Virus record (IMG/VR): IMGVR_UViG_3300034019_000060
Location: 1 to 29,444 of that record
DNA length: 29,444 nucleotides
From: a virus
Direction: 5' to 3' (one strand)
Part shown: positions 8,963 to 24,493 of the stretch, piece by piece
Layout of the letters: the number at the start of each line of letters is the position of its first letter
How positions within the stretch are numbered: position 1 is the stretch's first letter
Position numbers and translations under genes: made by a program
Notes under the pieces: model-generated
What the model was told of the DNA's origin: nothing
The model's database searches: none
What the model saw: the letters and a program-made list of their open reading frames with translations, nothing else

Positions 8963-10723
8963 TTATCCCCAAATCATTGCAGTCATGATGCCACCAGAAG
9001 CACCGCCGCCGCCACCCGGAACGTTTACAGTCACAGCCGAGCCGACTGCTGTGGCTGTTACACCAGAGCCGGTGAAGTTGAAAGAAGTAGCGCTTGCGGT
9101 AATGGAAGTGCCTTCATCTAACACGGCTATAGAGGCTGCACCAGAAGCCCCGGTAGGGCCTGTTGCGCCGGTCGGCCCGGGCACTGTCGAGGCATCACCC
9201 GTGGGCCCCGTTGGGCCGTTCGCCCCTGCGGCCCCAGTCGGTCCGGTCGGGCCGGGGATCGTACTGGCAGCACCCTGAGCGCCGGTGGGCCCCGTTGGTC
9301 CGCTGCCCGAAGGGCCTGTCGCACCGGTCGGTCCTTGATAGCCGTCGAGCACTCGGATATTGATCGCAACACCAGAGGATGGAGCCGTAACGAAGATGAC
9401 GTTAGCACCAGAAACCGTGTAATCGGTTGTCGGTGTCTGACTAATACCATTCAACAAAACAAGAATGGATGTGACCGTGATTCCCGCCACGGCAGCGTAA
9501 GTCGTTGTGGTTCCGTCGCCCGTATAGGAGTAAGTCTGAAAACCCGTTCCAATTGCAGACGCAGGGCCTGTGGGACCCGTTGGCCCGATATTCCCTTGTG
9601 CGCCCTGACTGCCGGTGGGCCCTGTTGGACCGGCCACCGTACTAGCAGCCCCTGTTGGGCCAACATCCCCCTGTGCCCCGGTGGGCCCCGTCGGTCCGGC
9701 AACGGTACTTGCAGCGCCTGTAGGGCCGGTTGGCCCAACCCCCGCGGAGACGTTTACTGTAACCGCATCACCAACGGACGTAGCCGTGACACCAGATCCT
9801 GTGAAATTAAAGGATGTAACGCTTGCTGTTAGCTGAGTGCCTTCGTCTGAGACTGAGATGGCACTGCCACCACCCCCAGCAGGCCCTGTGGGCCCCGTAG
9901 CCCCAGTCGGTCCAGTATTCCCTTGAGCACCGGTCGGTCCGGCCACAGTGCTTGCCGCCCCAGTTGGGCCGGTGTTGCCCTGAGCGCCGGTTGGACCCGG
10001 AACCGTAGAAGCCGCTCCGGTGGGGCCCGTGGGTCCGGTCGCCCCGGTGCCGCCAGTGATCGAAACTGTGACAGCATCACCGACTGCCGTTGCAGTGACT
10101 CCTGAGCCTACAAAGTCAAACGATGTGACATTCGTAGTAAGCGTCGCGCCTTCTTCCTTAACCGTGATTGCGCTTCCGCCTCCGGCAGGCCCGGTCGGGC
10201 CCGTCGGCCCGGGAACCGTAGATGCAGCGCCAGTGGGGCCAATATTTCCCTGAGCACCCGTAGCCCCAGTGGGTCCGGGCACTGTGCTTGCTGCGCCCGT
10301 CTCACCGGTGGGCCCCGTTGGGCCAGCCACCGTGGATGCCGCCCCGGTGGGGCCTGTGCTTCCAGTGGCTCCCGCTACCCCTTGAGCGCCGGTTGGACCG
10401 GTCGGGCCGACAATCTGCCCGGAATCGCCCCACGCAGATCCGCTCCACACATAAAGATGACCGTTAGAAAGAACAATATAAGCATCGCCGGGAGTGTTGC
10501 CAGACGAAGGCAGATCACCAACTGTGGCAACCGTTCCCTTGATCGTGATGCCAGCCCCTTGTGCGCCGGTGGGGCCCGTCGCCCCGGTTGGCCCGGGAAC
10601 TGTGCTCGGTAAGCCCGTGGGCCCCGTTGGTCCGCCCGCTGCACCGGCAGGCCCGGTCGGGCCGATAACGCCCTGATCTACAACAAGGACGATCTGATTT
10701 GCGCCAGTAACTGTCGTACTCAA
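8963..10723 (-). CDS. Collagen-like tail fibre protein
   Basis: 586 aa. Short head ([19 protein letters not shown]), then Gly-Pro-Thr/Gly-Ala-Gln triplet blocks interrupted by globular inserts: about 55-107 ([16 protein letters not shown], a Trp-containing beta domain), about 394-458 (a fibre beta domain ending [10 protein letters not shown]), and three copies of a 40-residue module (about 180-222, 287-325, 531-568) of the form [32 protein letters not shown]. Such GXY stretches form trimeric triple-helical shafts in phage fibres. The end [14 protein letters not shown] is a short tip. The start overlaps the previous stop (ATGA). Receptor binding by the tip or inserts is likely but unproven. 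Confidence 0.87.
9142..10680 (-). repeat. Collagen-like GPT/GAQ triplet repeat blocks (interrupted)
   Basis: Short in-frame repeats coding Gly-Pro-Thr, Gly-Ala-Gln and [14 protein letters not shown] units. The DNA is much richer in GGGCCC-like words than its surroundings. Third codon positions vary between copies (GGG, GGC, GGT and GGA for Gly; CCC, CCG and CCT for Pro), so peptide identity is much higher than DNA identity. Long open frames on the other strand here are by-products of this composition. Boundaries are approximate and include non-repeat inserts. Confidence 0.85.
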
Positions 10724-11274: not shown

Positions 11275-11303
11275 ATTTTATGCGGGATTCTCCAACTCCG
11301 CAA
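11275..11303 (-). promoter_or_regulatory. Weak candidate promoter before the fibre genes
   Basis: On the minus strand, TTGCGG (11303-11298) is followed after exactly 17 nt by TAAAAT (11280-11275), a 5/6 match to the -10 consensus, and an AT-rich discriminator. It precedes the only sizeable gap (75 nt) in the late operon. The -35 match is poor (TTG only), and late phage promoters often need other factors, so this is a low-confidence call. Confidence 0.25.
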
Positions 11304-14300
11304 TGCGCCGCTTCAAGTCTTGAATTTCCTTGAGCAGAGGAACAATCAACTTTGAATAATTGATGCCTCTCAAAACCTTTTCGCCATTTATGATGTCGTA
11401 GTAACAAATCTCTGAATTGACGGTCTCGGCATCTTCAGCAATCAAACCGTAAGATAAATCACCGTCTTTTTGGTCGGTGAGGTTCCCTTCCCTATCTCTT
11501 GCTCGGTAGTAAAACGAAACCGGCTGAAGATCATAAATCCATTGAGCATTTGCAAGTGGCTGAATATCTGTTTTGGTCTCTCTCAGAGAACTGACATAGC
11601 CGATCAATCCAGTGTTATCAACGTAAACATCTCGATTAGTTCCTCCGACTGTCGCGGAGTAAACGCCGGGAACCACAGCATTGCCAGACGATGTAAGCGT
11701 CAGGTAAGCAGTGCCAGAGTTGATGCTCGCGCCCGTTCCGATAACCACGCCGCCATCGACTACATCAGAGATGTTAGCCGCAATAAAGTATTGCTTAACG
11801 TCTCCAGCAGATCTTAAAAGAACTTCAGGAATGCCCTTTTGCAGTTTGAGATCGCCTTTAGCGAGCAAGGTAGATCCGTTCCACGTTAGGTTTGCCGAAC
11901 CGTCAAAAGTATTAGATGTGTTGTATTGGATGCTTGTGGTTACGCCTCCGGGTGTTGCATTCGCCCCCGTCGGGCCTGTCGGGCCGCCCGCTCCAGTAGG
12001 GCCGGGAACCGTTGACGCTGCTCCGGTGGGCCCCGTCGGGCCGACATTCCCTTGACTGCCCGTAGGCCCGGTCGGACCGGCAATTCCCTGAGCACCGGTG
12101 GGTCCAACATTGCCCTGTGCGCCTGTGGGCCCGGTTGGGCCGACACTCCCCGCAGCGCCCGTTGGCCCAACATTTCCTTGAGCGCCAGTGGGGCCCGTCG
12201 GTCCGGGCACAGTAGATGACGCACCCGTGGGCCCTGTTGGACCGGCAATCGAGGAAGCCGCGCCCGTGGGCCCTGTTGGCCCCGGTACGGTGGAGGCAGC
12301 GCCGGTGGGGCCTGTATTCCCCTGAGCCCCGGTCGGGCCGGTATTCCCTTGAATGCCTTGTGCTCCGGTGGGCCCTGTCGGACCGGCAACCCCGGTGGGG
12401 CCGGTCGCTCCCTGCAAGCCTTGCGCCCCGGTGGGGCCCGTTGCCCCGACGTTACCCTGCGCTCCGGTGGGGCCCGTGGCTCCCTGAATGCCTGTGGGCC
12501 CCGTTGGGCCGGGAACCGTGGAAGATGCCCCGGTAGCGCCGGTCGGGCCGATATTGCCTTGCACTCCGGTGGGCCCCGTTGGGCCCGGAACCGTTGAGGC
12601 AGGCCCTGTGGGCCCAGTCACCGAGGCTCCCGTGGGCCCCGTTGGGCCGGGTACTGTGGATGAGGCTCCCGTAGCGCCCGTGGGCCCTGTTGGTCCGCTT
12701 CCCGCGCCGGTGGGTCCAATCGGGCCCGTCGGTCCGGTCGGACCGCCCGCAGGCCCTGTGGGGCCCGTCGCTCCGTCTCGGATACTTGAAATCACCATTG
12801 AGTTTGTAGCCGAACAACCACCTTGACTTGCAGTCACCGAGACTGTTTTTGCAGTGCTAGGCGAGAAAGCAGACAGAACAAAAGTATTGGTTGTGGAAGC
12901 CTGTAAAACGCCGTCTACACGCCACTGCCACGTTGGGCTTGTAAAGGTACTTGTCGCTGTAAACGTGATCGTAGAGGGCGATACAACACCAGCAGAGGAC
13001 GTTATAAATTGAACAGCAGTTGAACTAAGACTTACAGTTCTAACGCTTGTGTCCCATACCACTGCGGAGGATGTTGCGCTAACAGAAGAAGCTGATCCGT
13101 TGCTAGCGATGACTCGAAAATAATAAGTGCCGGATGGAAGCGTTAGGTCTGTAAAGACCTGTGAAACCAATGGAGTGTAAGGACTGCCATCAATTGTGTT
13201 GGTTGTCTTGATTAGGTTCCAATCCGATGAGGATGGAGTCGCAACCGTCGTGTAGTACAGCGACATCAACAACACTCGACCGGTAGCCGGAACATTAGCA
13301 ACCATGCTAAATACCGGAGGATCAGCACAGGGAGCGGGTGCATACGGTGGCACGTTGTAGAGCCACGGTGTCCCCGGAGTCGAGATGTACTGAGAAGAAG
13401 GGATGCCAGATGCCGGAGCTTGTGTGTATTGGCTGATTGATCCCGCAGTCGGATCTGCGTAAACGGTTGCCGAGTATTCCGTAAGTTCTAGTGCCGCGCC
13501 GAGGTTGCCATCTGGTGTCGTAGCCTCGTTGACTTTCATGACTCGGAAGAGTTTGTTAGTCCATCCGTAGTCTGAGTTTGTAATGTCTACAACATCACCC
13601 GCATCAACCTGAATCGCAGGGTAAGCCGCAGTAATCGAAACTAATAAGTCCTCTCTGCTCTGCAAAAGCCGACGATTGGCAAGATACTTAACTTGCACCG
13701 AATCGTTGGTCATCTCTAGTCGATAAGTCTCTTTGTTCCTCGGCTCGTTGGCATAAAGAGAACCGGCTGGAAGCTCTGCAAATACGATGTCTGGCTGATC
13801 TCGCGCTTCTTTACTTGCGAAGTCAATCTCAATCTGGTTGATTTGTTGGTTGATGTCGGTGGTGCTAACCCGAATGTCACCGATTAGATTTGTGTCGTTA
13901 AAGGAGAAGCTAGAAGCCTCGGCTTTATTGACGACAATCGACCACTGACCAGAGGCAGCGTTGTAGGTCATCCAACTGTCGCAAGCCTCGATAATTTGCT
14001 CGACGTTCTCTAAGATTGGTCGAGCCGTATCAACAACACCGTTGATCCTATATCTCGCTTGACTGCTCGTGCCTCCAGATGAGTTCGTGTAAGAAATGAG
14101 CGTATCTGAGTAAGTGTTAAGCGTTGCCGCGCTGGCAGAATCGACTAAACCCGTCATGCCTGCGCCGTAACGTGTGTCGGTCATGTAGTCGTACCAGACA
14201 TCCCCGGGCTTAGCTGCGCCGGTTCCGTTTAGATACTGAGAACACTTGAAAGTAAGAGGCTGCAAACCAGTTAGTCCGGCATCCCTGTTATAAGTCATCC

Positions 14301-14916
14301 TCACAATGGCAAATGCCAAACCGTTCATTCTTCTTCCGGTGGAAGGCCATTGCAAAGCAGGATCAATACCCGCCGGTTCAGAAGGCCCCATTACATCCCA
14401 CGGATAACTTAGCGAATTAACCCTTGTGATATTTCCAGAGTTATCAGATGTATATAAATAAATCTGAAATCTATTGTCAGCCGCCACTGCGTCATCTATG
14501 TTTCCATTGCCATCAACAAGACTTTCGACATTTGGACTTGAAGATGATTGAAAATTTACTTGCCGGTCACCGTACCAAAAATCTGTCGTGTCAAAAGAAA
14601 ACTGTCCGTTATTGCTAATACTAGAGATTGCAAGAACATAAAACATTACCTTTTGATCGGTAGACAACACCGCATCGACAAAGGTTCCGCCGAGATAAGC
14701 ATCTCCGTACACAATCGGCACAGAATAATTAGCCGCTGGAGGAAGTTGTTGTCTTACACCCGCATCCTGAGCATTTGAGCTTTTATTTCCGAAGGCCTTA
14801 GAGACAACGACAGAGGTTGCAAACCGAATCGCCGCGGTTGCGGCCATAGCGCCCAAACTGCTCGCAGCGAATACACCCGCTTCTACAAGTCCCGCGACAA
14901 TAATGGATGCTGGCAT
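11278..14916 (-). CDS. Tail hub (J-like) fused to collagen shaft and S74 peptidase/chaperone
   Basis: 1212 aa. Residues 1-45 are hydrophobic ([20 protein letters not shown]). About 45-510 resembles the J / phage-tail_3 central hub ([89 protein letters not shown]). About 530-710 holds fibronectin/Ig-like beta domains. About 715-985 is GPTGPTGA collagen-like shaft. 985-1105 is a beta tip domain. 1108-1212 is an intramolecular chaperone (S74) with Ser1110 and Lys1115 five residues apart, the catalytic dyad spacing of this family, and a C-terminal coiled coil ([19 protein letters not shown]). The chaperone should trimerise the shaft and then cut itself off. It starts 3 nt after the GNAT gene. Confidence 0.9.
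11962..12774 (-). repeat. Collagen-like triplet repeat in the tail hub gene
   Basis: About 270 residues of nearly uninterrupted Gly-X-Y triplets, mostly GPT with GAQ, GAA and GPA units. The peptide vocabulary ([25 protein letters not shown]) is the same as in the separate collagen-like fibre at 8963-10723. Codon third positions vary between copies. GC-rich relative to flanking DNA. Confidence 0.9.
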
Positions 14917-16004: not shown

Positions 16005-16648
16005 TGGACGTTTTCCCTGAAAACAAAGTCGTTATCCCAATCGACAAATGCGCCGCTTGTCATTGGTCTTAGAGTGTAAGTCGGGCATGTCTCAGCCACA
16101 ACATTAAACGTGCAGGCAGCGCCTACAGCCGTCAAAGTTCCGGTGGATGGAGTTCCTATCACTGGTCGGTGTAATGTAACGCTAACGGTCGATCCTGAGC
16201 CTCTCAAGACCTGTGCTGTGACTTTATATGGATAGTTTCCGATCTGAAGGAAGTCTCCCGCAGCGAATACAACTGTCGAGGATGCAACCGCAGGAAGATT
16301 GCCGACTGAGATCGTTGTCGCGTTAGGAGCAGGAACGCTCGCAAGCGTTAACGCCGAGGCTTGTCCTGAAGTGAGACCACCTTTGTATTCCGTGAACCAT
16401 TGAAGCGTTGTAGTGTTAAACGTGATGTTCGCCGCGGTTTGCCGGTCTAAGTTATCAATCGTCTGGATAACATCCCGGACTTGAGGATAGTAAAGATAAG
16501 AGTGAGGTTTGACTGTAAACACCCACGGAACTGCTGTGACATACAGAGCCGTTCTAACTTGTCCAGAGCGTGAGTATTGCTGCCCAACCATCCTTCGGTT
16601 ATTAACCGTGATGCTTTGCGAAATGTCTAGAATGGTCTGGAAGCTCAT
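16001..16648 (-). CDS. Distal tail / minor tail protein (gpM position)
   Basis: 215 aa. MSFQTILDISQSITVNNRRMV, SRSGQVRTALYVTAVPWVFTVK, VRDVIQTIDNLDRQTAANITF, then a middle domain (TTISVGNLPAVASSTVVFAAGDFLQIGNYPYKVT) resembling the beta-barrel insertion typical of baseplate/distal tail proteins, and an ending with CPTYTLRPMTSGAFVDWDNDFVF. Immediately downstream of the tape measure, it takes the place of lambda gpM or an SPP1-type distal tail protein, forming the ring at the tube end. ATGA overlaps with both neighbours. The family is not firmly recognised; the call rests mainly on gene order. Confidence 0.7.
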   Translation of the reverse strand: MSFQTILDISQSITVNNRRMVGQQYSRSGQVRTALYVTAVPWVFTVKPHSYLYYPQVRDVIQTIDNLDRQTAANITFNTTTLQWFTEYKGGLTSGQASALTLASVPAPNATTISVGNLPAVASSTVVFAAGDFLQIGNYPYKVTAQVLRGSGSTVSVTLHRPVIGTPSTGTLTAVGAACTFNVVAETCPTYTLRPMTSGAFVDWDNDFVFRENVQ

Positions 16649-18537
16649 GTTCTACCTCGGACGCTTAATGATTTGTTGGCGTATTGATTCGCCGCCCACA
16701 CAGCCTTAGAACTGCCTAAAAGCCGATCCTCAAAAGACTTTACGTCGATAGCTTGAATGTTGTAGTTGACAACCGTTGAGCCAGCTTGAGCCATCATGCC
16801 GTTAGGAACGATTGTTCCGCTTGCTCTAGGAACAAAAAGCTCAGGGCCTTTTTCCCCTACGATATAAGGCTCTCCAGATGTTACAGGGCCTCCATTTGCT
16901 CGAAACATATTGAAAAAACTGCTCAACATACCCGCGCTAGCATCTGATTTAGGAAAGATTGCGTCAAACAAATTATTGAGTGATCGTGAGGCGAATTTTT
17001 GCAACAGACTAGAAAGCACATTCTTAAACGCATCAGTTGCCTTACGGCCAGAACCAAACGCACCAACAATCTCAGCGCCTAAGCTCTTGAACCCATCCCG
17101 AAGATCCTCAAGCATGAGTTCCATTTCGGTTTTTGCAGGCTTCATGCTCTTGTTGTAATCCTCAAATGCTTTACCTAAGATCATGTAATACTCTTTAGCG
17201 TTAACAAATCCTTTTTCAAACGCCTCATCAAGACTCTGCACTCGATTCTCAAGAATCTGTAATGGTGAAAGCGCACCATCTACTTGCTTTCTCCAATACG
17301 CCCATTCATCAGCATCCTTTGCCAGTTTCTTTCCTGCGCTAGAGACTTCGTCGACAAAGTCTTTGACCAGTTCCTTACGGTCAGCGCCCATCGCTTTTTC
17401 GGTCTCGGTTCTGATCTTGTCAAAAACATTCTCCATCGTGTCGCTGGTTGATTTATCTAGCTTCAGCGAAATCAAGATGGTCATCTTCTTAACGCCAGCT
17501 TCGCCTGCGGCTTTTCTAGCCTCAAACATTGAGGACATTTCCTCGCCTTCAACAAGACGGCGAATCTCTTTGTTTAGGTTCTCTAAATAGCTTTGCGCGG
17601 CTTTACCAGCAGACTCAATGTTTTTCCGACCCTCTCTAATTGCACTGCTTTGCGCTGAAGTTAGTTTCTCTGTGGCTTCCGTGGCTTTTGTGTAAAAGCC
17701 CATAAACTGTGTGAACCACTTTCTTCCTTCGTCCGTAGCCTTGCTTAAATCAATCTGCAAGCCCGTTACATAGTTCCTGACGCTCTGTATAGAAGCCGAA
17801 CCAGATTCAAGCCCCTTCAGCGTGTTTAAAAGTCTTCCAGCCTCATCCTCAGCAACGTTTAGATCTTTTGCTAAAGAGCTTGCAGCCCATCCTGCCGTCT
17901 TAGGAATAAGACCGAAAAAGAATTTGTTGTATTCGTCGCCTAGAGCTTTAGCGGACGATTTGATCTCGTCGCCAAACTTCATGCCCGATAAATTCCGCAT
18001 CTGCTCGTAGAGCTTTTGCAGGGCTGGTGCTGCATCCTCGTTGTAGATCTCGGACAGCTCTTTCAACGACATTCCAGCTTTGTCGTTCATGTCCGTAAAC
18101 GCTTTTCCAGCGTTATCTACATCCTCAAGGATCTGCTGAAGCGATCTCAGCTCGACACCCATCGCAACAAGCGCCGCCTTGAATGCAGGGATGGCAACCG
18201 CAGCCAACGTCCCTAAGATGACACCGACTAGACCAAAGCCAGAAAGTAATTGTGGAAGCTGTTGTCCCAGTGCAGTAAGTGCGCTTTGTCCAGATCCAAC
18301 TTGCACCGCAAAGTCTTGAACCTGATAGCCTATATTTCTTGCTTGATCGGCAAACTGTTTCTGAGAATTACCCGCGCTTTTCAGCGAGTCATCGTAGCCT
18401 TTAGTCTGCTGCTCGATATTCTTAAATGATTGGCCGAGCTCTTGAGCTTTACGTTTGGCTTCGTCGGCATTTTTCTTAAACTCTGCGCTTTCAAGTCCTA
18501 GACCAACTTGCAGCGCTGCAATCATCTTACCGGCCAC
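16645..18537 (-). CDS. Tail tape measure protein
   Basis: 630 aa from a GTG (18537) with a GGGGG ribosome site 5 nt upstream. N-terminal ALQVGLGLESAEFKKNADEA and QARNIGYQVQDFAVQVGSGQSALTALGQ (66-92) are diagnostic for the lambda-like tape-measure group. A hydrophobic segment follows (about 100-128), then long alpha-helical regions rich in Lys, Glu and Ala, and a C-terminal part with FRANGGPVTSGEPYIVGEKGPELFVP, a common TMP ending. It sets tail length and may insert into the host membrane. At about 1.5 angstrom per residue it implies a tail of roughly 90 nm. Follows the frameshifted chaperone gene, as in lambda. Confidence 0.95.
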   Translation of the reverse strand: MAGKMIAALQVGLGLESAEFKKNADEAKRKAQELGQSFKNIEQQTKGYDDSLKSAGNSQKQFADQARNIGYQVQDFAVQVGSGQSALTALGQQLPQLLSGFGLVGVILGTLAAVAIPAFKAALVAMGVELRSLQQILEDVDNAGKAFTDMNDKAGMSLKELSEIYNEDAAPALQKLYEQMRNLSGMKFGDEIKSSAKALGDEYNKFFFGLIPKTAGWAASSLAKDLNVAEDEAGRLLNTLKGLESGSASIQSVRNYVTGLQIDLSKATDEGRKWFTQFMGFYTKATEATEKLTSAQSSAIREGRKNIESAGKAAQSYLENLNKEIRRLVEGEEMSSMFEARKAAGEAGVKKMTILISLKLDKSTSDTMENVFDKIRTETEKAMGADRKELVKDFVDEVSSAGKKLAKDADEWAYWRKQVDGALSPLQILENRVQSLDEAFEKGFVNAKEYYMILGKAFEDYNKSMKPAKTEMELMLEDLRDGFKSLGAEIVGAFGSGRKATDAFKNVLSSLLQKFASRSLNNLFDAIFPKSDASAGMLSSFFNMFRANGGPVTSGEPYIVGEKGPELFVPRASGTIVPNGMMAQAGSTVVNYNIQAIDVKSFEDRLLGSSKAVWAANQYANKSLSVRGRT

Positions 18538-19353
18538 GATTTCCCCCTAGTATTTCCAGATACTCTGCCTTGAATCCCGGCAAAGTGGTGAACGTTAAAA
18601 AGTCACGCTCTTGTCTTGTCATGTTTTCTGGAGGGATAAAGTATTCCTCCAAATGCGGGAAGAACTCGGTCGGCTTAGATGTTTTCGCTCCTTTTGACCA
18701 CGAAGCAGCAAAGTTATAAACCAACGACATCAGATGCGACATAAAGATCAGGTTTTGCCTTCCACCGATCAATCCGTCGCGCCACATCAATTCTAATGCT
18801 TGAACGGTCGCTACATCAAGACTATCAAATACTTCCGGGCTTTGACCGTTAAAGATTGCCGCAGCCCTTATCTGGTGATATAGCGACCCTGTCAGTTTTT
18901 TTTCGTTGTCTCGTAATCAGGATTGACAACAGACTCAATGGATTTCACAAGCTCCGTTATCTCAACCTCGGATAGCGTGTCTGCGATGTCCTCGTAAGAA
19001 AGGGCAAACAAATCGTCGCCTTCCTTGAATCCGACTAGAGAAATCATCGCAATTTCACGCATCTTTTTGATGGCCGTGAATCTTGCTGTTGACTTCATGC
19101 TCACGCCCTGCACCTTAACGTCATTTTCCAATACTTCTATGCCATCATCAGTGGGGCTGCAAAACTGCCACAGCGAATCTATAAGCGTTTTATATTCGCC
19201 GTCGATAAGTTCTTGAGGAGGCTTCTTGAGCTTGTCCATCAAGTTTTTCATCTCGTTTCTGGTCGGCAAATAGACCTCAAGATTTTGATCGCCAAACTTG
19301 ATCTGTCGATATTTTTGCCGCTGAAAACCACCCAATCTTTCTTGTAATTTCAT
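18527..19353 (-). CDS. Tail assembly chaperone fusion (GT), via -1 frameshift
   Basis: Predicted 275-aa product made when ribosomes slip -1 on A_AAA_AAC (18901-18895), bypassing the TGA at 18894-18892. After the slip the frame reads CTG ACA GGG and stays open for 122 codons to 18527 (LTGSLYHQIRAAAIFNGQSP, then SLDVATVQALELMWRDGLIGG and a C-terminal LPGFKAEYLEILGGNRGR). The frame after the slip has no convincing independent start; the earliest ATG/TTG near 18790 lies inside protein-like sequence. In lambda the equivalent gpGT bridges the tube subunit and the tape measure during tail assembly. The 3' end overlaps the tape measure start by 11 nt. Confidence 0.85.
18892..19353 (-). CDS. Tail assembly chaperone (G-like), zero-frame product
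   Basis: 153 aa from ATG 19353, which overlaps the gp10-like stop (ATGA); an upstream GTG at 19383 has no ribosome site. Features: MKLQERLGGFQRQKYRQIKFGDQN, VYLPTRNEMKNLMDKL, MKSTARFTAIKKMREIAMISLVGFKEGDD, and a C-terminal helix ending NPDYETTKKN at the slippery run. Length, charged helical content and position before the tape measure are those of a lambda G-type chaperone, which coats the tape measure while the tube polymerises. Most ribosomes should terminate here; a minority make the fusion. Confidence 0.88.
   Translation of the reverse strand: MKLQERLGGFQRQKYRQIKFGDQNLEVYLPTRNEMKNLMDKLKKPPQELIDGEYKTLIDSLWQFCSPTDDGIEVLENDVKVQGVSMKSTARFTAIKKMREIAMISLVGFKEGDDLFALSYEDIADTLSEVEITELVKSIESVVNPDYETTKKN
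18895..18901 (-). other. Programmed -1 frameshift slippery heptamer A_AAA_AAC
   Basis: On the minus strand eight A residues (18903-18896) are followed by C, in phase as ACG AAA AAA AAC TGA. A_AAA_AAC is a canonical X_XXY_YYZ heptamer, placed directly before the zero-frame stop, with an open -1 frame continuing to the tape measure gene. No strong downstream stem is obvious; only a 5-bp GGGCT/AGCCC pairing about 28 nt downstream. Confidence 0.85.
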
Positions 19354-19823
19354 TTTGTCTTTGACCTTTGTTTTGATGCCCACGCGTCTAAATTTTTACC
19401 GAGACGCTCCGCAAGCGACGCTAGAACTTGTGGAACGGCAGATTGAAAGTTATTCCTGATAAAAGGCTTGCCCGGTGTTTTTGCAGTGCCGTATTCCATA
19501 GCCTCTGCTGCGGGTCTATATTCGCCTTTCTCATCCTTGTAATTAACACCAACATCGACATAACCGAACGCAACGGTATTGGGCGAAAGATACTTGCGCT
19601 TTTTATCTTTGCCAGTGGCAACCTTTGCGCCCTTTCTGATCTTGATCTTCAGTTTCCCGGTATCTACGGGTGCGCCAGCCTTAATTTTTGTTTTGGCTGC
19701 CTCCATAGCTTCTCTGAGAGCCGGTATAAGAGCTCGTTTGGCTTTTGTTGTGCCAAATTCCTCTTGTAGATCTAAAAGAACTCTCTCAAATTCTTTTAGA
19801 CCTTTAACCTCTATCGTTGGCAT
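19350..19823 (-). CDS. HK97 gp10-like head-tail / tail completion protein
   Basis: 157 aa. IEVKGLKEFERVLLDLQEE (4-22), a basic helix, APVDTGKLKIKIR (51-63), EYGTAKTPGKPFIRNNF (110-126) and a C-terminal helix follow the HK97 gp10-like pattern: substrate-like PVDTGxL and the YGTxxxPxxPFxR motif. The family acts in head-tail joining or tail completion. It normally precedes the tail terminator and tube genes; here it lies after the major tail protein and just before the chaperones. It overlaps the 76-aa gene at its start by 20 nt and the chaperone ATG at its end (ATGA). No clear ribosome site is visible, so translation is probably coupled. Confidence 0.9.
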   Translation of the reverse strand: MPTIEVKGLKEFERVLLDLQEEFGTTKAKRALIPALREAMEAAKTKIKAGAPVDTGKLKIKIRKGAKVATGKDKKRKYLSPNTVAFGYVDVGVNYKDEKGEYRPAAEAMEYGTAKTPGKPFIRNNFQSAVPQVLASLAERLGKNLDAWASKQRSKTK

Positions 19824-20034
19824 TGGTGACGATGCGCTTGAAGATCTGATCGTTTAGTTTCAGGACGTAATCAACTATTTCATCCGGTGACATGCAGTCC
19901 GCGTGATTAGCTGCAATCTGATGGCACAGCGAAATGTTGATGAGCCGTTGTTGTGGATACCCAAACCAGTTCTTAGCACCGGTTTGAGCCTGAGTAATTA
20001 GATAGCTCAGTAAATCGTCACTCGCTCGCTGCAT
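19804..20034 (-). CDS. Small hypothetical protein in the tail module (76 aa)
   Basis: 76 aa: MQRASDDLLSYLITQAQTGAKNWFGYPQQRLINISLCHQIAANHADCMSP in part, ending with DEIVDYVLKLNDQIFKRIVTNANDRG. Predicted all-helical. GAGG lies 4 nt before the ATG. It overlaps the 59-aa gene upstream by 17 nt and the gp10-like gene downstream by 20 nt. No family recognised. Size and place between the tube protein and the frameshifted chaperone suggest a small tail-assembly factor, but that is inference from position only. Confidence 0.65.
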   Translation of the reverse strand: MQRASDDLLSYLITQAQTGAKNWFGYPQQRLINISLCHQIAANHADCMSPDEIVDYVLKLNDQIFKRIVTNANDRG

Positions 20035-20197
20035 ATTGCCTCATCACGTTGAGACAAACAGCTTCATCGGCTTCGGCTTCCTGTAAGGCGGCATCCACCT
20101 CTTGAAGGGTAAAGGGATGGCCTTTAGCGTACTGGTGGAGATCGCCGTGGTATCCCTTCATGCCCTCAAGAAAATCAGACATTGTTTGACCAGCCAT
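20018..20197 (-). CDS. Short helical protein (59 aa) after the major tail protein
   Basis: 59 aa, MAGQTMSDFLEGMKGYHGDL through MRQYAASE, from ATG 20197 with AGGGG 8 nt upstream. It fills what would otherwise be a coding gap of about 140 nt. It overlaps the end of the major tail protein by 23 nt and the start of the 76-aa ORF by 17 nt. Mostly helical and acidic (DAALQEAEADEAV). An internal ATG (20182) could also be used. No domain recognised; a tail-assembly accessory is plausible by location. Confidence 0.65.
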   Translation of the reverse strand: MAGQTMSDFLEGMKGYHGDLHQYAKGHPFTLQEVDAALQEAEADEAVCLNVMRQYAASE

Positions 20198-20669
20198 ATT
20201 GATTACCCCTCGGATGAATGGTGAATGTCACCTTAGCTTCAGCACCGGGAGCAGGATCAACCGTCCACTGGCTTACACGTCCGTTGAAAGCGTAGTAAAC
20301 GATGTTTGTGCCATCCGTTGCTGCGATAACAAACGTGCGATCAATCGTGCCGTTGTACGCATCGCCGCGAAGCAAAAGAAGGTTAGTGTCGGCAGGATTC
20401 CACGCCGCTACCACCGTCATGCTTGTAGGCGCAGACTGAACGGGGATCTTGTCAGATTGACGCGAGCCAGCGACCGAGAAGTTAGCAACCGCATCATCTT
20501 GCCCGAATGCAGGAATCGCCTCTACAGGCACAAGATTGGCTGAGACAGCGATAGCCGCGACGCTTGCAACCACAGAAAGGTTTGCAGTCGTTAGCGGGGT
20601 TGGGGTTGCAGTTGGTTGGCAATAGAGCGAGGCGCTAAAGCCGGGTAAAACTTTATTAGGAAGAGCCAT
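20175..20669 (-). CDS. Major tail (tube) protein
   Basis: 164 aa. MALPNKVLPGFSASLYCQPT, then beta-rich segments (VEAIPAFGQDDAVANFSVAGSRQSDKIPV, SMTVVAAWNPADTNLLLLRGDAYNGTIDRTFVIAATDG, NIVYYAFNGRVSQWTVDPAPGAEAKVTFTIHP). This is the lambda-V/phage tail tube pattern: an aspartate- and glycine-punctuated beta barrel ending with a strand of the form AxVTFxI. It polymerises around the tape measure. GAGG stands 6 nt before the ATG. It follows the tail terminator by 8 nt. Only the N-terminal tube domain is present, without an added Ig domain. Confidence 0.85.
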   Translation of the reverse strand: MALPNKVLPGFSASLYCQPTATPTPLTTANLSVVASVAAIAVSANLVPVEAIPAFGQDDAVANFSVAGSRQSDKIPVQSAPTSMTVVAAWNPADTNLLLLRGDAYNGTIDRTFVIAATDGTNIVYYAFNGRVSQWTVDPAPGAEAKVTFTIHPRGNQYGWSNNV

Positions 20670-22079: not shown

Positions 22080-23105
22080 TTAAGTTCCAATGAGCCGAAC
22101 GCCAGCAGTTACATCACGAACGGTCGAGACCATCCGCTTCTCAGCATAGATCGTAATCGTTCCGGGTTGGGTCTGCTCCATTCTCTGAAGCGTCATCTCT
22201 GAATGATCGACGATCCACATAAACCGCGGCCAGTTTGCAAGATAAATCGGAGAAGCACCGGCAGCGGGAGCATCCAAATAAGGATTAGCAATAACCGGCC
22301 AGCCCATAATGTTTACCGCAGGGCCTTCGTCCTTCTCGCCAACTTCTACAAGCGCGTAAGAATTACCAGAGTGGGCATACTCTCGGAGAATCTGAATGGC
22401 TGTCGGGTGCATCATCCACGCAGTTCCGGGCATTCTCCAAAACTGACCGGGAAGAGCATTAGCAACATCTACAAGCGTTTCCCACTCAAGGTTCGTATGC
22501 GTAAAGCCAACCGTGTTAAGCGTGTGTATGCCCGCTGTAATAGCCGTTCCTGACGTTCCGTAAGCAGCAGATGACCCAGCAGTACCAGCGTACATCTTCA
22601 AGCCTCTAAGGCCGTTTGTCGCGCCCGTGGAGGTTGTTGTAGAGCCTGCCTGATCGTTATTTATTGCCATCGACGCGGCTTCGATCTGGCTAAATTCCAT
22701 TGCGAGATCTTCAACAAGCGCCGCATCTAATCCGTTGATGTCATCCATCGCCGCTGCCCTGATTGGCATCTGAGCGGAAATAACACGCATCGGAAGCTGC
22801 CAAATGGATGTGGCGATATTGGGTGAGCCTGAGTTCGCGTTGACCGTGTAGCCCCACGGGTTGGTAGAGTTAGCAGCATTACCTGTCTTAACGACAAACT
22901 GAATATCCGAGTCTGCCGTCATTGTCTGATTTGCATAAACCCGAAATGGGTTCCAGTAACGAAGGGATGCAAAGACATCCTCGTTGTAAACGCGACCGCC
23001 AACCCCGCTGCCTGAGCCGGTTAGGGCTGAGGCTTCCGCGAGGTTGACAGTGCTTTTGCCCTCGTGGAGAGCCTTTTTCAAGCCTTCCAAAATAACCTGT
23101 TTCAT
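22080..23105 (-). CDS. Second HK97-fold capsid protein (paralogue without delta domain)
   Basis: 341 aa. Clearly homologous to the capsid protein encoded just upstream: shared EASALTGSG (24-32), VKTGNA, WGYTV, ATSIWQ, AQMPIRAAAMDDINGLDA, MEFSQIEAASMAINNDQ, GLRGLKMYAG, AAYGTSGTA, and the end pattern QTQPGTITIYAEKR followed by STVRDVTAGVRL. It lacks the N-terminal coiled-coil/delta region, starting only about 23 residues before the conserved core. It may form a specialised position (for example pentons, as T4 gp24 does relative to gp23) or co-assemble with the first protein. It starts after a hairpin and a GGAG site. Both genes look intact, so this is not a decaying duplicate. Confidence 0.88.
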   Translation of the reverse strand: MKQVILEGLKKALHEGKSTVNLAEASALTGSGSGVGGRVYNEDVFASLRYWNPFRVYANQTMTADSDIQFVVKTGNAANSTNPWGYTVNANSGSPNIATSIWQLPMRVISAQMPIRAAAMDDINGLDAALVEDLAMEFSQIEAASMAINNDQAGSTTTSTGATNGLRGLKMYAGTAGSSAAYGTSGTAITAGIHTLNTVGFTHTNLEWETLVDVANALPGQFWRMPGTAWMMHPTAIQILREYAHSGNSYALVEVGEKDEGPAVNIMGWPVIANPYLDAPAAGASPIYLANWPRFMWIVDHSEMTLQRMEQTQPGTITIYAEKRMVSTVRDVTAGVRLIGT

Positions 23106-23143: not shown

Positions 23144-24493
23144 TCAAGCAGCCGTACCAGTCGAGCGATAACGCACACCAGCGTTAGGATCGCGCACAGA
23201 AGTAGCTGCGCGAGTCTCGCCGTAGAACGTGATCGAACCGGGTAAGGTTTGGTCGTATCTCCTGAGAACCATCGAGAGACGCATGACGATGGTGTGGAAC
23301 TGCTGCCAATCCGCAAAGTACATCGGATAGTAAGACGTAGTTCCTGCTGCGCCGGTGGTGGGCTGGCTGGGGTTATCAAGATACTTGTTGACTGCAACCT
23401 TGAAGCCGAGCAGCTCACCCACGATGCCGTCAGTGCGTGATAAACCGTCGATGTAGATCGGACGCTTTTGATCGTCTACGAGACCGCGGATGCCTTGAAG
23501 CAGGATCGGGTTAATCATGAACGCTGCGCTGGCCGTCCAATACTGCTGCGGCAGGCTGTAGATGAAGTTAACAACATCTTTGTAAACGATATTGTTAGCT
23601 GCAACCGTGTTGGCGTTGGTCGTCAACTGATCGTAAGTAGCAAGCGAGTGCAGACCGTTGGTGGTTGCAGTTCCCGAAGTACCGAAAGCAGCCGTCGAGC
23701 AAGATCCGCCCGTGTAGGTTGCATTAGCGCCAGCATACTGATCCAAACCGCGCAGACCATCAGCACCGCCCGTCGTTACCGAGGTTCCGGTTCCCGACTG
23801 ATCGTTGTTCTGGATCATCGAGGTTGCCATTGCCTGCTGGAACTCCATCAGCATATCGTCAACAACGTTGGCCTCTAAGCCGTCGATGTCATCAAGTGCT
23901 GCCGTCCTGATGGGGAACTGAGCGTTTAAGTCCTTAAGGATCACCTGCCAAATGCTCGTGGCTTCAGTTGTAGGTGCGCCGTTGTTTTGAACGGTGTAGC
24001 CCCACTGAGCGCCCGCGTTGCCGGTTTTGACTCTAAATTGATATGCAGAGCCGTCAGTTGCAACGATACGCGACAGATCCATCAAAGGATTTCCGAGACG
24101 CTTTGCAGCGAACACGGGATCGTAAGCTGTACGGCCACCAACGTCGTAACCCGAACCCGTAAGAGCCGAGGCTTCCTTGATGTACGCTTCGCACTGGTCG
24201 ACAGATTCAAAGATCTTGACTTCACGCTCAATGTTGTTACCAGCCTTCATGTACTCCTTAAGAACGTCTTTGAAGCGACGATTTGCTTCGCCACGGACGG
24301 TCTTGTGAATAGGACGGATGATCGAAGGAGCGGCAACTTTTGCCTCTAAAGCGGCAATCTTTGCTTCGGTTTCGGTCTTAAGCGACTCGACAGCCTCAGC
24401 AACTTTTGCCTCGACAGCCTGTGCGGTTTCTGCAAGTTTTGCAGCGCTAGATGCTTCGATTGCATCCAGTTTTTCAATGACTTTTTCCAACAT
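23144..24493 (-). CDS. Major capsid protein, HK97 fold with delta-domain-like N-terminus
   Basis: 449 aa. Residues 1-55 are Ala/Glu/Lys-rich coiled coil, followed by a basic helical stretch to about 105, as expected for the HK97 delta (scaffold) domain removed by the prohead protease. The core begins EASALTGSGYDVGG (107-120) and includes VKTGNAGAQWGYTV, IWQVILKDLNAQFPIRTAALDDIDGLEANVVDDM, NNDQSGTGTSV, GLRGLDQYAG, and the P-domain/axial ending GSITFYGETRAATSVRDPNAGVRY. Typical length for a scaffold-fused HK97 capsid protein. It follows the protease with a strong AGGAGA ribosome site. The paralogue downstream shares the core only. Confidence 0.93.
   Translation of the reverse strand: MLEKVIEKLDAIEASSAAKLAETAQAVEAKVAEAVESLKTETEAKIAALEAKVAAPSIIRPIHKTVRGEANRRFKDVLKEYMKAGNNIEREVKIFESVDQCEAYIKEASALTGSGYDVGGRTAYDPVFAAKRLGNPLMDLSRIVATDGSAYQFRVKTGNAGAQWGYTVQNNGAPTTEATSIWQVILKDLNAQFPIRTAALDDIDGLEANVVDDMLMEFQQAMATSMIQNNDQSGTGTSVTTGGADGLRGLDQYAGANATYTGGSCSTAAFGTSGTATTNGLHSLATYDQLTTNANTVAANNIVYKDVVNFIYSLPQQYWTASAAFMINPILLQGIRGLVDDQKRPIYIDGLSRTDGIVGELLGFKVAVNKYLDNPSQPTTGAAGTTSYYPMYFADWQQFHTIVMRLSMVLRRYDQTLPGSITFYGETRAATSVRDPNAGVRYRSTGTAA

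Follow-up and report, generated by a model that had tools for sequence, protein, structure and literature searches.

In bacteriophage lambda, the slip site of the tail genes G and T is G_GGA_AAG. A short protein G and its −1 fusion GT, the latter a rare product, are encoded there just before the tape measure gene, and the G:GT ratio is put at about 30:1 in a passage of PMC5009743. The locus described here lies on the minus strand of a virus record of 29,444 bases (the window, by which the whole stretch of analysed DNA is meant) and shares this arrangement with lambda, but it differs in its A_AAA_AAC heptamer, in a stop codon placed right after the slip codon and in a covarying stem, and neither the window G nor the window T showed a sequence match to its lambda counterpart. 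The contrast between A_AAA_AAC and the lambda motif had already been drawn in the initial annotation.

Among the other closest systems are the g-t frameshifts of HCTV-2 and HCTV-1, which differ in belonging to haloarchaeal viruses and for which homology is not implied. The E. coli dnaX signal resembles the present one in its A-rich heptamer, in a stem of about 11 bp and, for part of the relatives of the window, in an upstream Shine-Dalgarno sequence (passages of PMC5009743); it differs in having A_AAA_AAG and a high efficiency, whereas the window is without a good Shine-Dalgarno sequence and has a stem around a 59-nt loop. The single slippery A_AAG of B. subtilis cdd (CGA AAG) and of IS1222 (G_CGA_AAG), as given in part of the same source (PMC5009743), is found again in those relatives that carry TCA_AAG, a likeness that excludes the window itself; in contrast to cdd and IS1222, these relatives have an immediate stop and, 6 nt further, a stem. 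The eukaryotic-virus sites treated in a section of PMC4373837 resemble the present one in that the stop comes immediately behind the slip heptamer, and differ in involving eukaryotic ribosomes and unrelated genes.

The comparative evidence argues for a programmed −1 ribosomal frameshift that would make a predicted G/GT pair, and we give this reading a probability of about 0.93. The G/GT frameshift is of an already known kind. In the open-access literature, no account was found of frameshifting in P19250A, an isolate phage belonging to the family, or in its kin, and those passages of papers that name this phage contain nothing on frameshifting in P19250A; nor was a description found in the open-access literature of the present family, or of a tail-chaperone signal in which the slip motif and the 3' stem partner change while the stop and the spacer are fixed. 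The family is a natural experiment with four slip motifs and with stems that keep one arm while changing the other, spread over 61 clusters (90% nucleotide identity) that come from mostly uncultured phages, and it permits tests of the requirements of a −1 signal, notably of the part played by the adjacent stop. It also carries a rule for annotation: G and T of P19250A were filed as two genes, and a structure scan of 40–60 nt overlooks the stem of the window.

The locus and its relatives

The features of the locus are collected in Table 1. A cassette of two ORFs, the second in −1, was found between the probable major tail protein gene and the tape measure gene, with three more ORFs (20018–20197, 19804–20034 and 19350–19823) separating the tail protein gene from G, and the GTG start of the tape measure gene overlaps the end of T. 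The initial annotation had proposed an A_AAA_AAC −1 frameshift between G-like and T-like frames at a tail-gene position ahead of the tape measure gene, and this proposal is supported. The ORF at 19350–19823 on the minus strand is HK97 gp10-like (PHROG 5, E 3e-14, together with a Pfam match). As the start of G, the listed GTG at 19383 was rejected: relatives keep the ATG at 19353 followed by MKLQERLG or a similar sequence, and not the upstream reading. Invariant residues are present across the 61 G proteins of the cluster representatives, and the G frame was open for fewer than 140 codons in 6 of 218 distinct sequences.

Table 1. Coordinates of the features of the G/T locus in the window
Feature	Coordinates	Strand	Description	Support or comment
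Window	29,444 bases		virus record	
G frame	18892..19353	(-)	153 aa, ATG 19353 to TGA 18894-18892	start conserved across relatives
Overlap of upstream ORF and G	ATGA at G start	(-)	upstream ORF = 19350-19823	
A8 run	18903-18896	(-)		
Slip heptamer A_AAA_AAC	18895..18901	(-)	within A8 run	invariant in 13/13 window-clade representatives
Zero-frame stop TGA	18892..18894	(-)	immediately 3' of slip codon	
Spacer, 6 nt	18889..18894	(-)	stop codon + CAG	same length in 218/218
Stem 5' arm	18877..18888	(-)	GGUCGCUAUAUC	folding and covariation
Stem 3' arm	18806..18817	(-)	GAUGUAGCGACC	folding and covariation
13th stem pair	A18876-U18818	(-)		folding
Loop, 59 nt	18818..18876	(-)	contains smaller predicted hairpin	
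T frame (−1)	18527..18895	(-)	122 codons beyond G	predicted 275-aa GT fusion
Tape measure gene	16645..18537	(-)		PHROG 1538, E 3.3e-27; Pfam TMP_2 above cut-off
Probable major tail protein gene	20175..20669	(-)		PHROG 158, E 1.5e-5
GAG, weak	18910..18912	(-)	site of Shine-Dalgarno-like AAGGA in relatives	

Relatives were collected in six scans of viral contigs, one of species genomes and four of phage records, which gave at least 357 loci besides the window, many of them being the same contig fetched twice. The best 80 loci were taken in each of four viral-contig scans, and the family is larger than the sample. With the window included, there were 358 sequences, of which 352 were readable and 218 distinct; six (L020, L021, L048, L056, L129 and L337), indel-ridden or incomplete, were left out. 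An alignment of the site in relatives had been suggested together with the initial annotation, and its outcome agrees with the proposed event: T is in the −1 frame relative to G in 352/352, and A_AAA_AAC is kept in 13/13 representatives of the window clade.

Among the phage records, 1 of 50,697 matched. The isolate phage P19250A (KX815270) is a member of the TCA_AAG group. The set of species genomes gave one locus, on a contig labelled Crocinitomicaceae. This phage tail-type contig, L221, is placed in a Crocinitomicaceae metagenome bin; since its G/T kin are virus contigs throughout, the host label is doubtful and may be wrong. L020 shows indel breaks in several genes and an odd junction and is unsuited to frame analysis. 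Under a looser rule, L296 appeared as a +1 case, which was rejected, its G being broken or truncated (31 codons) and the final parse giving −1.

Slip motifs before the G stop

The 3' end of G in the window reads ACG AAA AAA AAC TGA and contains X_XXY_YYZ in the zero frame in the form of A_AAA_AAC. Among the 218 distinct sequences, the G frame ends before its stop in A_AAA_AAC (94), G_GGA_AAC (62), G_GGA_AAT (1), T_TTA_AAG (2), TCA_AAG (58) or TCA_AAA (1); a canonical slip heptamer forms the last seven bases before the stop in 159/218, and TCA_AAG/A is found in the other 59. According to the initial annotation, relatives with a disrupted A-run and an intact T frame would speak against the frameshift. 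Such relatives do occur, namely P19250A and its kin, in which TCA_AAG is followed by the stop, and other kin without the A-run alternatively carry G_GGA_AAC or T_TTA_AAG, with T always in −1. Because another conserved junction takes over in these phages, their occurrence touches the need for the A-run and not frameshifting: judged from the aligned junctions, the A-run is unnecessary across the whole family, and frameshifting itself stands.

A tree of the 61 cluster representatives (90% nucleotide identity) was built from G minus its last six codons, which excludes the slip codons; its bootstrap had not settled, and counts of changes on this tree are minima. The window clade comprises 13 of the 61 representatives (support 100/100), and A_AAA_AAC is present in every one of them. 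Within this clade, 32 columns of G hold an invariant, degenerate amino acid, and a single codon is used in only two of them, the AAA and the AAC of the heptamer. The codon preceding AAA AAC is AAA in 3, GAA in 8, AGA in 1 and CAA in 1, its final A alone being fixed, since this base is the X of X_XXY_YYZ. The codon invariance is usable as evidence in the window clade because the tree without slip codons recovers the same 13 rows; the corresponding invariance in the G_GGA and TCA_AAG groups was set aside, since these groups were chosen by that very motif.

Over the G genes of the 61 representatives, an in-frame X_XXY_YYZ occupies the final two codons in 48, with TCA_AAG in the remaining 13, and elsewhere at 20 of 9,299 codon positions. 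The 34 minus-strand ORFs of the window contain 17 in-frame heptamers, of which two open a −1 frame longer than 31 codons, the G/T site (122 codons) and A_AAT_TTA at 19395 (165). The latter (19395–19389, minus strand) lies in the gp10-like ORF, and its −1 frame is the open G frame; as the site of a further frameshift it is probably a coincidence of sequence, since in the relative L012 an in-frame stop separates this position from the G start.

Upstream of the heptamer, no convincing Shine-Dalgarno sequence was found in the window (−3.0 kcal/mol with the anti-Shine-Dalgarno sequence, 32nd percentile of the same gene). A Shine-Dalgarno sequence at or below the 5th percentile was present in 1/16 representatives with A_AAA_AAC, 17/31 with G_GGA_AAY, 7/13 with TCA_AAG and 1/1 with T_TTA_AAG. 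A dnaX-type Shine-Dalgarno stimulator was rejected for the window, though it is common in relatives.

The stem beyond the stop

Only a weak downstream stem had been noticed in the initial annotation, and the efficiency was supposed to depend on the heptamer and the adjacent stop alone. In fact, a strong stem of 12–13 bp has its foot exactly 6 nt past the heptamer (−32.7 kcal/mol and z −3.60 with 90 nt folded; 0/200 dinucleotide shuffles as good), and it shows paired changes between relatives, which leaves the supposed dependence on heptamer and stop unsupported. A repeat fold gave z −3.65, and 2 of 1000 synonymous recodings of the window T fold as well as the native sequence. The spacer of 6 nt falls within the 5–9 nt usual for −1 frameshifting according to a passage of PMC8211752. 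Short folds after the stop (z −0.12 for 40 nt, 0.09 for 60 nt) miss the stem because its 3' arm lies some 60 nt further on and both arms must be included; a fold of 85 nt, with the end of the 3' arm outside, gave z −1.17.

In a simple scan, the stem began at base 7, counted from the first base of the stop, in 218/218 sequences. The 3' arm ended at position 51 in 130 of them, at 89 in 79, at 38 in 6 and at 41 in 3, which makes four different 3' partners for one fixed 5' stem base. In the window type (52 sequences; L007 was left out of 53 distinct ones, and the count over all 53 agrees), 99.8% of cells were paired, and two pairs showed double changes, 11/85 with G-C in 28 sequences and A-U in 24, and 12/84 with C-G, A-U or U-A. 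The other main type (86 sequences), whose 3' arm lies at 40–51 instead of 78–89, had 98.1% of cells paired and double changes at four pairs, 8/50, 11/47, 14/44 and 17/41. When mapped to the tree of G, pair states changed at least once at 11/85 and at least twice at 12/84 in the window type, and at least twice at 8/50, nine times at 11/47 and seven times at 14/44 in the other type, all the states observed being standard pairs. The changes in the 3' arm of the window type alter T, from Ala to Val, Ser or Thr.

In the shuffle control, the percentage of paired cells, the double-change cells and the covariation score of both sets were reached by 0/500. At least as many covarying pairs were seen in 20/500 shuffles for the window type and 58/500 for the other type, and at least as many pair types in 483/500 and 144/500, respectively; 8 of the 12 window-type pairs show no variation. 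When the window-type partners were slid by 3 columns, the covariation was 0.091 and 0.099 against 0.106, with only 50–55% of cells paired, and slid versions of the other type reached at most 0.139 against 0.298. Compared with synonymous recoding, the native stem beat all 60 recoded versions in 12/16 representatives with A_AAA_AAC, 23/31 with G_GGA and 2/13 with TCA_AAG, the TCA_AAG stem being weaker in this comparison than the stems of the other two groups.

The hairpin inside the loop did not keep its register between relatives, as judged by eye. The best loop match for a pseudoknot in the window was 7 bp, equalled by 160/200 shuffles, and longer loop matches were found in a few relatives (L187, L233, L244, L223 and L253); consistent support for a pseudoknot was not obtained across the window and these relatives. 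A search of Rfam with positions 18500–19400 returned a single match, to an lncRNA family at E 0.59, far below the cut-off.

Reading of the T frame and identity of the products

Most ribosomes would read G and terminate at the TGA, releasing the 153-aa protein. A minority would be slowed when the 12–13-bp stem, with its foot 6 nt past the heptamer, meets the mRNA entry; both tRNAs on AAA AAC would then re-pair with AAA AAA one base back, and reading on in −1 would yield the 275-aa GT fusion. On the lambda model, the abundant G would be a chaperone that coats the tape measure protein, and the scarcer GT would bring in the tail-tube protein. In E. coli, A_AAA_AAC is much less shifty than A_AAA_AAG, as stated in a passage of PMC5009743, and frameshifting of 6% and 7% is given for two HK97-like tail chaperone genes in part of PMC3711429; by this comparison, the modest A_AAA_AAC suits a predicted product of a few percent. 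The comparison of relatives gives the frame relation, the slip site, the adjacent stop and the paired stem changes, from which we infer the slippage itself.

The same event might take place at another step, with the tRNAs slipping after translocation, when the stop is already in the A site, and this version, although it seems to us the less probable one, has a real chance of being correct. The stop adjoins the slip codon in 218/218, which is unusual, since the mean slip-to-stop distances in two other phage sets are 26 and 36 nt in the PRFect passages at hand (PMC10885494). Moreover, TCA_AAG gives only the Lys-tRNA on A_AAG an obvious −1 pairing, and in 6/218 sequences T opens just 7 nt before the stop, so that the slip has to lie within TCA AAG; this speaks for slippage while the A site holds the stop, a step also argued for HIV-1 constructs (PMC4373837). 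At the HIV-1 slip site, a stop placed next sets release factor and slippage in competition (a section of PMC4373837); in the HIV-1 construct of that same section, however, the following stop cut frameshifting by about 70% (PMC4373837), so the stop could serve only to hold the ratio low and GT rare. The canonical heptamers in 159/218 also permit ordinary two-tRNA slippage. The further proposal that the stop occupies the A site during slippage and that the level of release factor helps to set the GT:G ratio is a tentative and rather unlikely one; if true, it would link tail assembly to termination efficiency.

As a rival reading, T could be a gene of its own, with translation beginning at a T start or resuming past the G stop, and with the overlap being mere gene packing. 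In the P19250A record (KX815270), G and T are indeed entered as separate hypothetical proteins, T being given an internal ATG start, and possible starts near the slip are found in many relatives (TTG at codon 5 in 25/61; a first ATG or GTG at codon 13 in 41/61), so that an argument from the absence of a start is strong for the window only. There, however, the −1 frame runs open between 18916 and the stop at 18529–18527, and the first possible T start, a TTG at 18790, comes after 35 codons, which confirms the initial annotation in both the 122 open codons past the slip and the 35 codons ahead of any start. Its remark that protein-like sequence begins right at the slip point was also correct, the conserved residues being S4, L5, Q8, A12, F15, N16 and G17. 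Over T codons 2–35 of the window clade, pairwise differences at codon positions 1, 2 and 3 amounted to 576, 489 and 1313, and single-base codon changes were synonymous in 816 cases and non-synonymous in 225; the other two frames of the window have 4 stops each within the first 34 codons. By this pattern of substitution, T is under protein-type selection ahead of any start. Protein conservation that starts at the slip point, ahead of possible starts, argues against a separate gene, as do a start position that varies while the slip codons, the stop and the stem foot do not, and a codon-level freeze of AAA AAC that a separate gene would not need. A T gene of its own is, in our judgement, improbable.

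Transcriptional slippage, in which RNA polymerase would slip while copying the A8 run and the altered mRNA would be read by an ordinary ribosome, is more improbable still. The window does have eight consecutive A's, but its clade includes representatives with A6 or A7 (AGA, GAA or CAA before AAA AAC), other kin use G_GGA_AAC, T_TTA_AAG or TCA_AAG, and a translation-type stem at a fixed spacing is found in 218/218. A homopolymer assembly error, with the true gene in one frame, has a negligible chance even though the relative contig L020/L056 contains clear indel errors in several genes, being refuted by the −1 position of T in the isolate genome of P19250A and in independent contigs, whether these carry A6, A7 or A8 or lack the A-run.

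With programmed frameshifting as the preferred reading, we infer from gene order, architecture and the frameshift itself that G and GT are tail-assembly chaperones, and this role rests on gene order and frameshift because neither a consistent sequence match nor a significant PDB fold match was obtained. In PHROGs, neither G nor T of the window had a match up to E 1, and in Pfam the window G matched only Hus1, below the cut-off. PHROG- and Pfam-type searches with the 61 G proteins gave scattered matches of one or two members each, and the 61 T proteins had no PHROG matches; since families of tail-assembly chaperones are often too diverged for a match, the role may hold even without one. The best PDB sequence relatives were at E 0.38 or worse. 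The predicted model of G (pLDDT 88, pTM 0.78) was closest among solved structures to 5ir0 (Z 5.8), followed in second rank by the HK97 tail assembly chaperone 2ob9 (Z 4.4, rmsd 4.4, 97 aligned), both matches lying within the noise of the tool. Foldseek against pdb returned nothing at E ≤ 0.001 for the G model, which had two significant matches in a viral structure library, both uncharacterised. The predicted model of T was of low confidence (pLDDT 73.6, pTM 0.37).

Elsewhere on the minus strand of the window, two long ORFs of the tail region (8963–10723 and 11278–14916) contain collagen-like GPTGP repeats. Additionally, two adjoining ORFs at 22080–23105 and 23144–24493 are both major-capsid-like and 41% identical over 345 aligned columns, a similarity which suggests a tandem duplication; in the same place, P19250A has a capsid gene and then an unnamed gene.
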